NCBI GenBank assembly: GCA_030704845.1
Contig: JAUYKZ010000019.1
Location: 1-60,904, forward strand
Origin: an archaeon
GTDB taxonomy: Archaea > Nanobdellota > Nanobdellia > Woesearchaeales > GW2011-AR9
DNA: 60,904 nucleotides
Reading direction: 5' to 3'
The position numbers and the translations under genes were made by a program. Shown here piece by piece: positions 2,413-60,904 of the stretch. A model generated the notes under the pieces. It saw only the letters and a program-made list of their open reading frames with translations, was not told the origin of the DNA and made no database searches. The first letter of the stretch is position 1, and each line of letters starts with the position of its first letter.

Positions 2413-4102
2413 AGTTCCCCCTTACCTCGTCAAGTAATGATTGCCATGCTCCAGCATCTGAAGGCCATTGATTCCAAACGAGAATATCTATTTCCATGTT
2501 TCCGGCAATAACAGCTGGAACTTTATGAATAAATTCAATGATTTCTGGTTGACCTTGTTGTAGCGCATCCCTTCTTTCCGAGAATAGTGTTCTAGTTACC
2601 CCGTCATATTTTACTTGCGCAATTACAAGATGATTTGCAAGATTTATTCTTGGCGTAATTGTAGCTCTAATCGTGTGACTATTTCCACTAACTGCACTTT
2701 GGACAACTGCATTGTTACGAAGTAATTCTAGTGTGATTATATCTGGTTGTTGCTGGTTAATCGGCGGTTCAATTTGACATAAGTTATCACACCCGTCGCT
2801 ATTTATTAAATTACCATCATCACAAGTCTCGCCACCAGCAACATTTCCATCACCACAGAAATTTGCAGCTTGAGGTGGACCAGCAATACCAAGGTCTAAA
2901 TCGGTTACAGGACAGGTAGAATCAAAATAATCTGAAACTAAAGACACAGCATTATCGATACATCTTTTTGCTTCAGCAAAAGTACTTGGTGTCCAATCAT
3001 TTTGATTTACACCAGGACAAAGAGAACGCCAACCAGTTTGAAGATAAGGTTGACCGTTGTCAGCATATAAGTAAGCGAATTGTAAATAACCCTCGCTGAT
3101 TCTTTCAATTACAGGAATTCCACGATAAACTGCAACACAACTATAGGTTGAAAAACGGTCATCATCAATTTGAACTCCATTTGACATGAGTTCTAATAAC
3201 CTTTGCGTGCAAACACTATCGCTTTCAACACGACCAACTAAATCACCATCACCACTAACTGAACAAAGTTGAATTACAGGTTCTTCTGCTACTGGAGATT
3301 GTTGTAGCCTACACTGACCAGTCCCAACATCACAACCAACAGGACACTCGATTGCTTCTCCAATTACTTTAAAGCAATTAGTTTCAACCTCATCACAGAA
3401 AACCTGGTGCGTAAATCCCGGAGGTATAATGCAGCTATTACCGGCTCGCCCACCACAACCATTATCTGAAATACATTGAACTACAGGTTCTTCAGCAACC
3501 GGAGCTACAAAATTTAATCTTCCATCACTTCTAGAATTAATCAATTCATTACCACCTAAATCAAGGACGCTTAATTCATCAATAGTAATTGTATATTCTC
3601 CAGGAACAGCGGAGGTAAAAGGAACATTAAATAATTCTACTGAACCGGTTAATGCATTTGAACATTCAGCATCAGCGCATAACCAAGAATACTCGACTGT
3701 AATTTGGCTATTATCACACCCAACTTCTTCGCCAACAATTAAATTATTTCCACCAATTAAAACATATGGCGCAATATCTAATGCATAAAAAACGTTACAA
3801 TCTGGAGATAGACCGGCTGGATAAGATAACCTAATTCTCCAAGCAGTAGATTGACCATCACCAAGATTCACACTAACCGGCACATTAACAACAGTACCAA
3901 CAGTTTCATCACCACCAGTTACAAAAATCCCACCTTCCCCAACTCCAGCTTGACCAAAATTAATAACTTGACCAACTCTAGGTCCATACATGAATAACAA
4001 AAGTGCAAGAATCATTACTGCGACTATAGAAATAACAGCAATAAAATAACTTTTCCTCGCCTCTATTAAATGGGGCGGTTTAGGGGTTTGTGAAGGTACC
4101 AT
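2393..4102 (-). CDS. Membrane-anchored surface protein, cohesin-like plus DUF4215 repeat
   Basis: The 569-residue protein has a short cytoplasmic N terminus and a membrane helix at about 17-41. The exposed region begins with a cohesin-like beta sandwich (about 60-200: VGTVVNVPVSVNLGDGQSTAWRIRLSYP). Cysteine-rich segments follow, then a DUF4215 repeat near 415-445 (CGDGNVAGGETCDDGN) and a C-terminal beta domain. CARDB-like is possible for that last domain but unproven. The residues after the helix (RVGQVINFG) match the G-Q-A/V motif seen in sister proteins. It probably has its own promoter in the 75-bp upstream gap. Confidence 0.8.
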   Translation of the reverse strand: MVPSQTPKPPHLIEARKSYFIAVISIVAVMILALLLFMYGPRVGQVINFGQAGVGEGGIFVTGGDETVGTVVNVPVSVNLGDGQSTAWRIRLSYPAGLSPDCNVFYALDIAPYVLIGGNNLIVGEEVGCDNSQITVEYSWLCADAECSNALTGSVELFNVPFTSAVPGEYTITIDELSVLDLGGNELINSRSDGRLNFVAPVAEEPVVQCISDNGCGGRAGNSCIIPPGFTHQVFCDEVETNCFKVIGEAIECPVGCDVGTGQCRLQQSPVAEEPVIQLCSVSGDGDLVGRVESDSVCTQRLLELMSNGVQIDDDRFSTYSCVAVYRGIPVIERISEGYLQFAYLYADNGQPYLQTGWRSLCPGVNQNDWTPSTFAEAKRCIDNAVSLVSDYFDSTCPVTDLDLGIAGPPQAANFCGDGNVAGGETCDDGNLINSDGCDNLCQIEPPINQQQPDIITLELLRNNAVVQSAVSGNSHTIRATITPRINLANHLVIAQVKYDGVTRTLFSERRDALQQGQPEIIEFIHKVPAVIAGNMEIDILVWNQWPSDAGAWQSLLDEVRGNYEVINN

Positions 4103-4177: not shown

Positions 4178-7100
4178 TTAAGAACAAACACCGCCAATAC
4201 AACCATTCGGACAATTTATCACTTCTTTTTTTGAATCAGAATTAGGAAGACAAGATAAATGCATGCCTTGATTATTACTAAGACAATAATCGCTTCTTCG
4301 ATAAATATAATTTTGGAAATCACCAGCTTCAGTTTCTCTTTCAAATTGAAGTAAGATAGAAGGCGCTTCACCTAATTCAGCTTGTTCTACCGTACATACC
4401 CTATTTCTAACAAGCAATGCTTTTAATGGGAAAGGCAAATCAGGCAAATTAATTTCACAAACATCTCCAAAACCATTACCGTCAACATCTTCTTGATTAG
4501 GATTATTTACTCTAGGACAATTATCATCAGCATCAAGAATTCCATCACCATCAAAATCTTGTCTAAATTGATCAATCTCTATTATTTTACTAATAATAAA
4601 TTCTCGAAGATTACCATAATCCTCATCCGATAAAGCAATCCAGGCATTAATGTTTCTGAATGGATCTAATTGTAAATTCAATTGAGCAGTAATAGAATTA
4701 TATAACTGCAGATTACTTACACGAATTGAATCAAGACGATTTTGCAACGTAACCAAATATTTTAAATCATCAATACCTTCCCGTATACCTTCCCATTCTA
4801 AAGTTGGAATAGGACCTTGCTGTGACGGATAAGTTGCCAGTTGTGGCGGTAGGTAACCTTTATTATCAAAGTTTTCTGAACCAAATTCAAGGAACGGCGG
4901 ACCAGTGTAAGAATTAAAAGAAGCAAGATGCTGATAGGCATAAGGAATAAATCCTTTGGCTTTTGTAAGCCATAAGACTAAACCGACTCTGTGACGAGTC
5001 AATTTAGGATACTGCTGACCGATCTGCCAATAATACCATTCATCTGCTGCAAAAGTATCTGGTTCTGCTCCCTGCATGATTGCATTATACCTTTCAAATC
5101 CCCGACCGGGATGAGATTTAACAGGCATAGCGATGGCAGCAATATCTGGATGCATGGTGGTATATTCCGGATTCGTTACTCGAATCGGATCAACTTCTCC
5201 CGAATAAACCTGACTATACATTTCACTATTTGGATCACCATAAAATTTGGCCGTTTCATAAATTAATGTGAATAAACTTTTAGCACCAGCATTATTGATA
5301 TTAGGAAGATAAGAAGTAAAAATTCCCCTAAACCCATCAGCATATGGATCACGGAAATAGTTTGCCTCGTCAGGACCGAAGAAAATTGATTCAAAGCCAA
5401 CTTGTTGAGTTAATTGAACCTGTTTTTCTAAATCACCGCATCCATAAGTAGAACCATCTGCATAAAGAAAATAACAAGTTTGAATCACTTTTTCAAAACC
5501 AATATCTTTAGCCATTTGTAAAGTTGTTTGCATTTCAGGTTCAAGTTGACCCCCAGTAAACAAAGTTAGAGCATTAAACCCATGATCTTTAATGTCTTGC
5601 ATTTGCAGTCGCATCAGATTTTCTGGAAGAACTTCAAGATAATTAACCGGCTTACGTGGAAAACGACTAAAATCTGGAGACAAAATAGCACGATAATATA
5701 TCGCTCTCGTCTGGGTCGGTTCATCAAGAGTAAACGGTAAAACACGAACAGTAAATGGAATTTCTCTGACAGATTGACCATTTGAAGTAAGAGTAAAAAT
5801 TCCACTATAATCACCTGGCGGAGTACCTTTGGGAACTTCAACCGTAATCCAAAATTGTTTCGATGTTCCGGCAGGAATCTCAGTCAATAATTGTGTTGAA
5901 ATCTCTGGCGAAATATAAGTTCCTTGCTCATTAAAACTATCTAAATAATTTTCTTGATCGTTGTAAACTAATAATTCAGGAACTAACACACCACTTTTAT
6001 CAAAAATGCCAAATTCAGTCCATGGCATTTGCGAAGCTATACCCCCCACTTGACCTGACCAGCTTTGTAGCTCATACCCCGTTTGTTTCCAAACTTTTAC
6101 AACGCGAATATCAATATTGTCTGTTGAAATAGAATTTTGTCCAAATGTTAACGACGTTATTGAAGCAGAGACTGAAGATAATTCTTGCGGAGAATAAATT
6201 ACAAAAGACGCTGGTTCGAATTCACCCGGAGTTGCACTTATTTCTAAATGATCGATAATCTCTTCCATCTTTGGTTTTGATGTTGGAAAAACTAAATTAG
6301 TTTTACCTTCTTCACCAAAAAGAGGTTTCTGATAAATAATTGGACCTTGCGGATAACTATCACATGACGGACAGAATTCAGTAACAAAATTATCATGTAC
6401 TCTTAGTTCATCATAAGTTCCGGCAGCAGTTATACCTTGACGAAAACCCAAAGTAAAATATCGATACATATCCAGTGGTAATTTAGCGATATGACCTGGC
6501 TCAATTGTGGCTGATAAAGAATTATCAGTCAGAATTTGTGCATCATTCGTGGAAAACTCAGTTTTCATAACTGCTTCTCTACCGTTAATGAAAATATGTA
6601 TCTCATCCGGAACATCATCAGCATTTCTTCTCCAACTAAAAGCAAGATGATACCATTCTCCCGGCTTCAGAAAAATATCTTCTGAAACTAAAGTACCGAG
6701 ATTTGGCTGATCTAAATCACTCTGATTACTATAAAAAGCTACAGTGAGTTGTGAACCATATAAATAACTCATTTTTAAATAATTATTTCCAATAGGCCAA
6801 GTGGTAAATAAATTTCCTTGAGCATTTTCATCTGGTTTATACCAAAATTCAATTGCTCCTTGATCTGGAAATAAGTAATAGGTGGGTTTATTGAGCTGTG
6901 TACCATAAACTGAAGATGGACCATAAGCATAAGTCTCAGCAGGGATATGAATCGCATTTCCTTCAACACCAGGAACATAATCTACTACACCTGCTGGAAT
7001 TAAACTAATTCCACCATCACAGTTTGCATTTCCTTCAAATGAACAAGAAACTAATTCTCCCGGTTGCAAGATTGCTTGTCCAGCAACAGCACTTTCTCTT

Positions 7101-7363
7101 CCAGAATAAAAGACTAAAAAACTTGAAATTAATATAACAATAATAAAAATAATTAAACCAATCTTTTTTTTATTCCTCGTTGGGTCCAATACCCCTTTGT
7201 TCGCAACGACCAACGAGGAATGACCAGAAATCCGTCTCGAAAATCGCCGTAATACCCCCCAGCTTGCTGTGAAGCGACTGCAAGGAGCGATAGGATAGGC
7301 AATTTCAGGATTTCTGTGTTTATCTACACTTCCTTTCTTAGTACGATTATTTTTTGATGCCAT
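4178..7363 (-). CDS. Large membrane-anchored protein with LamG, DUF4091-like and TSP3 modules
   Basis: The 1061-residue protein has these parts in order. A basic N terminus contains a 48-codon repeat-derived insert (about residues 16-63). A membrane helix follows (about 66-86). A LamG/concanavalin-like sandwich spans about 105-330 (IEFWYKPDE, WYHLAFSW). A large region about 345-920 resembles the DUF4091 glycoside-hydrolase-like family and ends in its typical WEGIREGIDDLKYLVTLQNR. One thrombospondin type 3 calcium repeat lies near 930-965 (DGDGILDADDNCP), then a Cys-rich tail. A carbohydrate-binding or degrading role outside the cell is inferred. The motif AVAGQAI follows the membrane helix. 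Confidence 0.82.
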   Translation of the reverse strand: MASKNNRTKKGSVDKHRNPEIAYPIAPCSRFTASWGVLRRFSRRISGHSSLVVANKGVLDPTRNKKKIGLIIFIIVILISSFLVFYSGRESAVAGQAILQPGELVSCSFEGNANCDGGISLIPAGVVDYVPGVEGNAIHIPAETYAYGPSSVYGTQLNKPTYYLFPDQGAIEFWYKPDENAQGNLFTTWPIGNNYLKMSYLYGSQLTVAFYSNQSDLDQPNLGTLVSEDIFLKPGEWYHLAFSWRRNADDVPDEIHIFINGREAVMKTEFSTNDAQILTDNSLSATIEPGHIAKLPLDMYRYFTLGFRQGITAAGTYDELRVHDNFVTEFCPSCDSYPQGPIIYQKPLFGEEGKTNLVFPTSKPKMEEIIDHLEISATPGEFEPASFVIYSPQELSSVSASITSLTFGQNSISTDNIDIRVVKVWKQTGYELQSWSGQVGGIASQMPWTEFGIFDKSGVLVPELLVYNDQENYLDSFNEQGTYISPEISTQLLTEIPAGTSKQFWITVEVPKGTPPGDYSGIFTLTSNGQSVREIPFTVRVLPFTLDEPTQTRAIYYRAILSPDFSRFPRKPVNYLEVLPENLMRLQMQDIKDHGFNALTLFTGGQLEPEMQTTLQMAKDIGFEKVIQTCYFLYADGSTYGCGDLEKQVQLTQQVGFESIFFGPDEANYFRDPYADGFRGIFTSYLPNINNAGAKSLFTLIYETAKFYGDPNSEMYSQVYSGEVDPIRVTNPEYTTMHPDIAAIAMPVKSHPGRGFERYNAIMQGAEPDTFAADEWYYWQIGQQYPKLTRHRVGLVLWLTKAKGFIPYAYQHLASFNSYTGPPFLEFGSENFDNKGYLPPQLATYPSQQGPIPTLEWEGIREGIDDLKYLVTLQNRLDSIRVSNLQLYNSITAQLNLQLDPFRNINAWIALSDEDYGNLREFIISKIIEIDQFRQDFDGDGILDADDNCPRVNNPNQEDVDGNGFGDVCEINLPDLPFPLKALLVRNRVCTVEQAELGEAPSILLQFERETEAGDFQNYIYRRSDYCLSNNQGMHLSCLPNSDSKKEVINCPNGCIGGVCS
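7173..7316 (-). repeat. Double-palindrome repeat inserted in frame in the surface-protein gene
   Basis: Two palindromes lie side by side. ATTCCTCGTTGG (7173-7184) pairs with CCAACGAGGAAT about 35 bp away, and CAGAAATCC pairs with GGATTTCTG (ending 7316). The 144-bp segment is a whole number of codons with no stop. It encodes a stretch rich in Arg, Ser and aromatic residues between two Lys/Arg-rich pieces that otherwise read as one ordinary pre-membrane segment. It shares ATACCCC-containing words with the element near 19000. This resembles the Rickettsia palindromic elements that survive inside proteins. Confidence 0.65.
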
Positions 7364-19951: not shown

Positions 19952-19969
19952 TTGATCACCTGTTTTATA

Positions 19970-20057
19970 ATAAAAATCCTTAAATTTCTATTCAAAATCA
20001 AAGGATTTTGGTATATACCAAAGGATTAGTTCGAAACCTAATTCCTTTTAGTATATT
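19970..20057. repeat. Two-hairpin TATA element (U3)
   Basis: The unit lies between TATA (19966-19969) and AGTATAT. The first hairpin has arms AAAATCCTT/AAGGATTTT, the junction is GGTATATACC, and the second hairpin has arms AAAGGATTAG/CTAATTCCTTT with loop TTCGAAAC. The architecture matches the units at 23503 and 60795 but the arm sequences differ. It sits directly upstream of the coiled-coil gene at 19951, where it could affect the promoter. Confidence 0.65.
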
Positions 20058-23077: not shown

Positions 23078-23807
23078 TTACACCTCTCGCAAATAATACC
23101 CATAATACATTACTAAACTTATCGCTTTAGTCATATCATCTGCGGCACCCTTCGAATGCGGAATCGAATCAATCATCTGGTCTCTCACTCGACCACGACG
23201 AGAATATAACCCAGATAACGCTAAATCATGTAGGTGATGAGGACGCAACGTTGATAACAATCGATTTTGAGGATATAATTTTATAGTTTCAATAAAATCA
23301 ACTCTTTCCTTTTCTAATTGCTCTATAGCTTTAGTAAAATCAGCCTCTGCTTTTTCTAATTCACCTATAGCAAATAAGACGCATCCTCGACCGTTATAAC
23401 TTTCCCAGTTAGTTCCATCAATTCTGATAGCTCTAACAAAATCATTTAATGACTTATCATATCGCCCTTGTAAAGCTTTAGTGTTTGCTCTATTGTGATA
23501 TACTAAAATGCGTTAGATTTCGAATATATTAACGCATTTTATATATATAAAGTGCCAAAAATAAGTTCGAAAGCTTTGGCACTTTAGTATATATTACCCA
23601 ATCAGTTTTATCCAATTTTAATGCATTTGCATAATCCCTTAAAGCTTCATCATATCTGCCTAGAAAAGTAAAAACATTTCCCCGACCGATTAATCTATCT
23701 AGAGATTTCTGAGTCAGACTCATTGCAGTCATATCACATCTCAGTTCATCTACTTCTGATTCAAAAAGATTAAGTTGCAATTCTAGATTGGTTTTAAATA
23801 TGGTCAT
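23078..23807 (-). pseudogene. TPR-repeat protein interrupted by a two-hairpin element
   Basis: The N-terminal part (23594-23807) encodes TPR units ending ...LDKTDWVIY. The same protein resumes at about 23500 with YHNRANTKALQGRYDKSLNDF and runs to a stop at 23078. A 91-bp insertion separates them, adding stops and shifting the frame (91 is not a multiple of 3). Without it one continuous protein of about 213 residues with three or four tetratricopeptide repeats is restored. TPR proteins are protein-binding scaffolds. The N-terminal 92-residue fragment could still be translated. Confidence 0.8.
23503..23593. mobile_element. Two-hairpin TATA element (U1) inserted in the TPR gene
   Basis: A 91-bp insertion directly after TATA (23499-23502) that ends in GTATATA. 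The first hairpin has arms AAAATGCGTTA/TTAACGCATTTT. A TATATATA junction follows, then the second hairpin AAAGTGCCAAA/TTTGGCACTTT with AAGTTCGAAA in its loop. Deleting the 91 bp restores the TPR reading frame exactly, so the boundaries are known. It encodes no protein. Confidence 0.85.
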
Positions 23808-60764: not shown

Positions 60765-60904
60765 TATACTAAAATGCGTTAGATTTCGAATATACTGAAC
60801 GAAAAGTATTTTTGTGAACTTTTCGTTGGTATATACAAACGCTAAATGAATTAAGTTCCAAATTTCATTTAGCGTTGAGTATATATTAACGCATTTTATA
60901 TATA
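60765..60904. repeat. Left part of the nested two-hairpin TATA composite (U1 holding U2)
   Basis: U1 begins at 60769 after TATA (60765-60768) with CTAAAATGCGTTAG. At 60795, right after TATA in its first loop, a second 91-bp unit (U2, 60795-60885) is inserted. The U2 hairpins are AACGAAAAG/CTTTTCGTT and AACGCTAAATGA/TCATTTAGCGTT, and it ends GTATATA. U1 resumes at 60886 with TTAACGCATTTT. Positions 60809-60904 are identical to 1-96. Confidence 0.85.

Follow-up and report, generated by a model that had tools for sequence, protein, structure and literature searches.

Miniature two-hairpin elements inserted at TA in an order of Woesearchaeota: paired stems of free sequence between conserved feet and loops

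Genomes of one order of Woesearchaeota, tiny symbiont-like archaea, carry repeats of about 89 bp, each built from two inverted stem-loop halves. Their activity is so recent that dozens of copies are still identical, and it has broken genes. These repeats are probably non-autonomous miniature transposable elements that have spread through the order, moved in trans by an enzyme that needs a hairpin and duplicates TA. The window, i.e., the whole stretch of DNA that was analysed, is a complete contig (C18; 60,904 nt) of an archaeal genome of 1,015,533 bp that is 97% complete; the archaeal proteins of this genome include S6e, an archaeal helicase, NOG1 and L16p/L10e. Three units in the window, U1, U2 and U3, represent three sequence families, A, B and C (Table 1).

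Table 1. Elements and related features in the window, with strand and basis of assignment.
Feature	Position	Strand	Basis or remark
U1, family A element of 89 bp (TACT...AGTA) with two stem-loop halves in inverted orientation	23501..23589	+	about 40 near-identical copies in the genome
U1, left copy of TA duplication	23499..23500	.	pre-insertion sites have TA alone in common; exact base pair ambiguous in the (TA)n flank
U1, right copy of TA duplication	23590..23591	.	pre-insertion sites have TA alone in common
U1 hairpin 1, stem 12, loop 14, CGAA at 23521-23524	23504..23541	+	folding, stem scan, half-model
U1 hairpin 2, inverted half, stem 12, loop 15, TTCG at 23566-23569	23548..23586	-	model match 23542-23591
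TPR-repeat gene broken by U1	23078..23807	-	frame restored only by removal of 91 bp; joined product matches TPR families
U2, family B element, 89 bp	60793..60881	+	nest comparison, folding
Family A copy with U2 in its hairpin 1, truncated by contig end	60765..60904	+	half-model, copy comparison
End of an A-with-B composite, truncated by contig start	1..143	.	minus-strand model matches at 22-75 and 91-140
U3, family C element, decayed, 82-bp core with TATA on each side	19966..20055	+	folding, half-model

A first-pass annotation had described U1 (23503-23593) and U2 (60795-60885) as units of exactly 91 bp with two hairpins each, and this description holds. Each unit adds 91 bp, composed of an 85-bp core (CT...AG) and six bases, and each folds strongly relative to dinucleotide shuffles (z of -6.2 for U1 and -6.5 for U2). 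The fold of U3 is weaker (z of -3.2 on the plus and -4.3 on the minus strand). This unit is 88 bp in size (82 + 6) and begins with TATAAT instead of TATACT; a relative of it was found in a genome from another family of the same order (L067). A covariance model of one half, described below, matches the two halves of U1 with E-values of 3.5e-13 and 1e-11, and U3 with 1e-4. Thirteen hairpins were returned by a perfect-stem scan of the whole window, six of them in U1-U3 or in the composite at the window start. The two halves of an element are inverted copies, and the loop motif read from either outer end is (T)TTCGAAC. The first-pass annotation had seen a conserved loop in the second hairpin; the motif itself stands, but it is not specific to the second loop, since the first hairpin of U1 carries it too. 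Compared with its own reverse complement, the element is 74% identical, which means that terminal inverted repeats are present; they are also visible as paired plus-strand and then minus-strand matches of the half-model.

The left 17-mer of family A occurs in this genome 36 times exactly and another five times with one or two mismatches, and its right half occurs 39 times, which together give about 40 near-identical copies with unrelated flanks. The spread of family A was recent, because most cores are 100% identical. True copy number may differ from this count, because the repeats break the assembly and contigs end inside composites: many ends of contigs C1, C8, C10, C12, C18, C19, C20, C22, C23 and C24 lie in A copies or in A-with-B composites. 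Like MITEs, the 89-bp element is short, multicopy (the roughly 40 A copies) and without coding capacity. The arms of the hairpins are conserved inside one sequence family and different between families. Thus, the earlier statement that arms differ almost completely is correct between families and fails within one, as the A copies illustrate.

Family B elements are also found inside A copies. The sequences flanking U2 are two parts of another U1-type copy (TATACTAAAATGCGTTAGATTTCGAATA ... TATTAACGCATTTTATATATA) at the contig end, a nest that the first-pass annotation had missed. All 11 observed B copies lie within or directly adjoin A copies; most of these loci were retrieved via A, and the four that came from an A-independent listing show the same placement. 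Five of the six TATATATA runs in the window sit in element copies, and this concentration may be enough to account for the placement of B with A.

More elaborate arrangements were encountered as well. At L047:1436-1680 (own genome, C8 at about 205,200), three units stand in a row: one hairpin alone, then an A copy whose first hairpin is different (arm AAAATGCGC), then a B copy. This arrangement suggests that hairpins can be swapped between units. A family C copy at about 993-1140 of L085 (C1:42592-42740 of the same genome) has an extra junction palindrome (GTATGTAAAAGGGAAAACTATCCCTTTATACATAC), which makes it a four-hairpin unit.

The insertion target was addressed by comparing copies with their surroundings. 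Nearly all intact A copies have the form TATA-CT...AG-TATA with flanks that are otherwise unrelated; an exception, L042, has TTCTA at the left of the A copy. At 25 pre-insertion sites, TA is all that the sequences have in common, apart from a mild preference for A in front of it. Where B is nested in A, comparison with uninterrupted A yields 91 added bp every time, and the insertion points are two different TA steps of one loop, plus the junction. Genes give the same size. As the first-pass annotation had noticed, deletion of U1 restores the TPR gene, and this holds for removal of 91 bp only; removing 89 or 87 bp does not return the frame. Among 22 A sites tested, removal of 91 bp produced long spanning frames at L018, L019, L020, L021 and L025, and at these five sites removals of 89, 90, 92 and 93 bp left clearly shorter frames. 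The restored proteins include a methyltransferase with a domain crossing the junction, TPR-repeat proteins and DNA damage-inducible protein D, and these matches span the junctions or lie next to them. Two further loci (L003 and L012) were excluded from the frame evidence, since the junction precedes the likely start codon.

The simplest reading of these sites is an 89-bp element, TACT...AGTA, that inserts at TA and duplicates it, with the proviso that in static sequence a TA duplication looks the same as insertion 3' of TA without duplication. A TA target-site duplication is in keeping with MITEs and with those derived from IS630/Tc1-mariner transposons. No clean empty orthologous site was found between G173 and G174, whose intergenic flanks are too diverged. 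The target was originally given as TATA, and this has to be replaced by TA with duplication. The first-pass annotation had itself named outcomes that would count against its proposal, namely units absent elsewhere in the genome, empty sites that do not match TATA, and arms that form conserved sequence families with ordinary transposon ends. Units are present elsewhere in the genome, and the findings go against the proposal in two points only: the empty sites show TA instead of TATA, and each sequence family has conserved arms.

Relatives exist well beyond this genome. With BLAST, five genomes of this family yielded full or partial relatives of 71-86% identity, and a second family of the order yielded a shorter match; the named records that carry the closest relatives are Woesearchaeota from groundwater. 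Single halves aligned from the outer end have the form TATACTAAAA-arm-(T)TTCGAAC-arm'-TTTT(A/G)TATA. A search with a structure model, as the first-pass annotation had proposed, was made with a covariance model of one half (R1), which matched 36 of 353 genomes of the order; among 371 genomes drawn from the phylum, matches were confined to this same order. The view that these are real mobile units, inserted into genes, is borne out. The Rfam 15 covariance models had no match in the elements of the window or in eight loci, and a search of the literature on Woesearchaeota and DPANN found no account of such elements.

The largest number of half-matches in one genome is 135 (G174), and many of these halves are near-perfect stems of 15-16 bp with CGAAC or TCGAAC as the cap. 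G174 also has another repeat of two hairpins, unrelated to the elements (GTAAGTTGGAAAGCAAAGCTTTCTAACTT-CTCAGGAATCTCTGATTCCCGAG), which adjoins them or is fused with them (L126:1511-1559 and 3137-3190, L229, L230). Single-hairpin forms (L230:6573 and L236:285) and a triple form (L126:2996) also occur, as do longer forms that contain internal palindromes (L242:84-269 and 7042-7299; L103). The longest, the versions at L242 in G038 (about 190-260 bp), have two extra palindromes between the halves, which the short version at L243 lacks; the two look like a parent and its deletion derivative.

The claim that pairing is kept while the arms change is borne out across the order. Among 121 distinct halves, which have 79 distinct 5' arms, 94.5% of stem cells are paired, and 298 cells are compensatory (both sides changed) as against 85.9 +/- 6.5 (sd) in shuffles. 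The covariation score is 0.645, compared with 0.178 when shuffled and a maximum of 0.123 when slid. The alignment of these halves was made to the covariance model and so leans towards structure. A MAFFT-aligned set of 21 halves had the same outcome (0.396 vs 0.137). Some positions are conserved in sequence: the foot is TATACT(A/G)AA, 82 of 120 halves have a CGAA that starts exactly at nucleotide 23, where chance would give 0.6, and the outer foot is exactly one base longer than the inner foot in 94 of 110 scorable halves. Recognition by shape and not by sequence, as first proposed, is thus not supported: paired stems are free in sequence, while the foot and the CGAA at its fixed position are conserved.

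Pairing does not appear to be maintained copy by copy. Individual A copies (L007, L020, L040 and L045) have single-base stem variants that are uncompensated in place, and because they remain so, pairing is not restored locally. In the absence of local repair, it is more likely that pairing is needed for spreading. The variant of L040 and L045 occurs at two sites, which suggests that a G-T mismatch in the stem may be tolerated.

A mechanism can be outlined from these features. The transposase would not be encoded by the element and would act in trans; it is probably a TA-duplicating cut-and-paste enzyme, similar in outcome to those of Tc1/mariner-IS630. It would contact the foot and the apical loop, and the hairpin, either as an extruded cruciform or as a single strand, would bring these two contacts together. 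That the hairpin matters is argued by the fact that unrelated arms keep matching partners. The inner ends lack the extra base, which might explain why the two halves move together. A more specific version, that this is an undescribed structure-guided system in which a TA-duplicating enzyme reads each end by its hairpin fold (foot, extra base and CGAAC loop) and accepts any paired stem, is offered only tentatively and is on the doubtful side. If structure-guided reading is true, new families would arise through joint change of both arms.

The search for the enzyme itself returned one transposase gene in this genome. In agreement with the first-pass annotation, no transposase is present among the window proteins scanned; none was seen either in the frames of the short contigs, inspected by eye, where C2 and C3 read as N. 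The only transposase found is in a single IS4/IS5-type insertion sequence (L205:1376-2310, contig C8 at about 4 kb), which has 14-bp ends GGCTCTGTCCAGAA, an 8-bp duplication ATAGATTA and an internal stop in the transposase. IS4/IS5 (DDE_Tnp_1) was rejected as the mobiliser on account of these different ends and the 8-bp duplication. A relative of this insertion sequence in G001 (L207) is 83% identical, and a 14-bp palindrome, AGTGTATACTGAAT...ATTCAGTATACACT, surrounds the start codon in both. The half-element model had nothing better than E of about 1 near 12 DDE_Tnp_1 loci. Among the 72 transposase loci examined, no autonomous element shares the ends described here, and no autonomous version with a gene between two halves was seen among the matches listed. 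Five exact-pattern scans of viral contigs gave no match. The enzyme could have been lost, could reside on a virus or plasmid, or could belong to another family, and an unsampled partner is possible.

Several other explanations of the elements have to be weighed. Inverted hairpins, a foot tag, an extra foot base and variable but paired stems resemble REP doublets (PMC3116915, PMC3733652), and the elements might be REPIN-like, with ends read by a single-strand transposase of the Y1 (HUH) type. Such enzymes, among them TnpA_REP and those of IS200/IS605, recognise a hairpin with an extra-helical base. Y1 genes are common enough in the order (125 of 353 genomes). However, this 97%-complete genome has dozens of identical copies and no Y1 gene, Y1 genes are not associated with the elements across the order (14 of 36 genomes with elements, 111 of 317 without), and nothing better than E of about 1 was found with the half-element model near 30 Y1 loci. 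Enzymes of the IS200/IS605 type use a tetranucleotide guide and target and make no duplication, and targets of four or five nucleotides characterise the IS200/IS605 and REPIN/RAYT group, whereas the sites described here have only TA in common and gain 91 bp. In addition, a survey from 2018 recorded no TnpA_REP classes for Archaea (PMC6006769). Y1 was rejected as the mobiliser on its absence here and the lack of association, and the single-strand transposase first suggested seems unlikely; the telomere-resolvase-like and RNA-guided enzymes suggested with it found no support either.

Ordinary IS630/Tc1-mariner MITEs would explain the TA target with duplication, the inverted ends of about 27 bp and the fixed spacing. 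The end would then be a duplex site of two boxes, TATACTAAAA and CGAAC, 22 bp apart, for which a fixed 22-nt spacing is equally expected; the hairpin would be unnecessary for movement and pairing would be kept on other grounds, for example the termination of transcription, the folding of RNA, or the repair of palindromes when DNA is replicated. One IS630 element of the order (L151 in G135) has ends TATAGTAAGGGAG(G/T)TT...TCGGA, with TATA(C/G)TAA and TCG(A/G)A in the register of the halves; this resemblance, confined to two boxes, is a possible lead. On the other hand, a duplex site would leave unexplained why 79 different arms keep partners that match, and the stem variants in A copies stay unrepaired where they are. 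The ends of IS630 elements in the order are without strong hairpins. DDE_3 (IS630-type) transposase is absent from this genome and shows no association with the elements across the order (four of 36 genomes with elements, 32 of 317 without), grounds on which it was rejected as the mobiliser, and the half-element model had nothing better than E of about 1 near 30 DDE_3 loci. This explanation is judged quite unlikely. Finally, nucleic acid intermediates or host recombination might spread the elements, a route that has been proposed for mitochondrial hairpin elements and would dispense with a dedicated transposase; it would agree with the lack of an identified enzyme, and the architecture is like that of double-hairpin elements and yeast GC clusters (PMC4478555, PMC2800124). 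Yet nearly every intact copy has exact ends and a clean TA duplication, which points to a single precise enzyme, and such a route is very improbable.

Miniature elements usually keep their end sequences, since the enzyme reads the ends. Against this background, 79 stem arms across an archaeal order, with pairing, loop and foot kept, amount to a natural experiment on what the machinery reads. For Woesearchaeota, which have few genetic tools, the elements provide a recently active mobile element that breaks both genes and assemblies, and the identity of the enzyme that moves it becomes a directly testable question.

The elements correspond to the general definition of MITEs in all but a known partner. 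RUP, which is associated with IS630-Spn1, inserts at TA (PMC2229807), and together with Correia/NEMIS and ERIC it resembles these elements in being about 100 bp, AT-rich, with TA ends, without transposase coding and found both inside and between genes. In contrast, those repeats form one long stem-loop with conserved ends, while the elements described here form two, with free but paired stems and a conserved apical CGAAC, and have no matching insertion sequence found. CIR elements of Caulobacter have two stem-loop arms from long inverted repeats, a linker, TA termini and a motif in the terminal loop (PMC2229807). They share with the present elements the two arms and linker, the TA termini and a motif exposed in the terminal loop, but differ in their bacterial host, a GANTC loop motif in place of (T)TCGAAC, and their absence from the inside of genes; their description there mentions no order-wide arm turnover. 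REP doublets and REPINs, which occur with RAYT (TnpA_REP), consist of inverted hairpins with a foot tag, and compensatory changes have been reported (PMC3116915, PMC3733652). They share the two inverted hairpins, foot tag and unpaired base, the tag here being TATACT, but have a GTAG or CGTC foot, no TA duplication and, for GTAG types, a linked Y1 gene. Mitochondrial double-hairpin elements and GC clusters are likewise short hairpin-forming mobile units; GC clusters have short direct repeats (PMC4478555), whereas the double-hairpin elements of Allomyces have no flanking duplication (PMC2800124). Both belong to organelle genomes and are unrelated in sequence, and the repeats of GC clusters are AG or ACT. 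As far as these sources describe them, CIR elements and REP doublets come nearest in form, and RUP, Correia and ERIC in target (PMC2229807, PMC3116915, PMC3733652, PMC10969869). By those same descriptions, the Woesearchaeota elements stand apart from all of them in combining a duplicated TA with two stem-loops in inverted orientation, an apical loop that is conserved, and a turnover of arms across the order.
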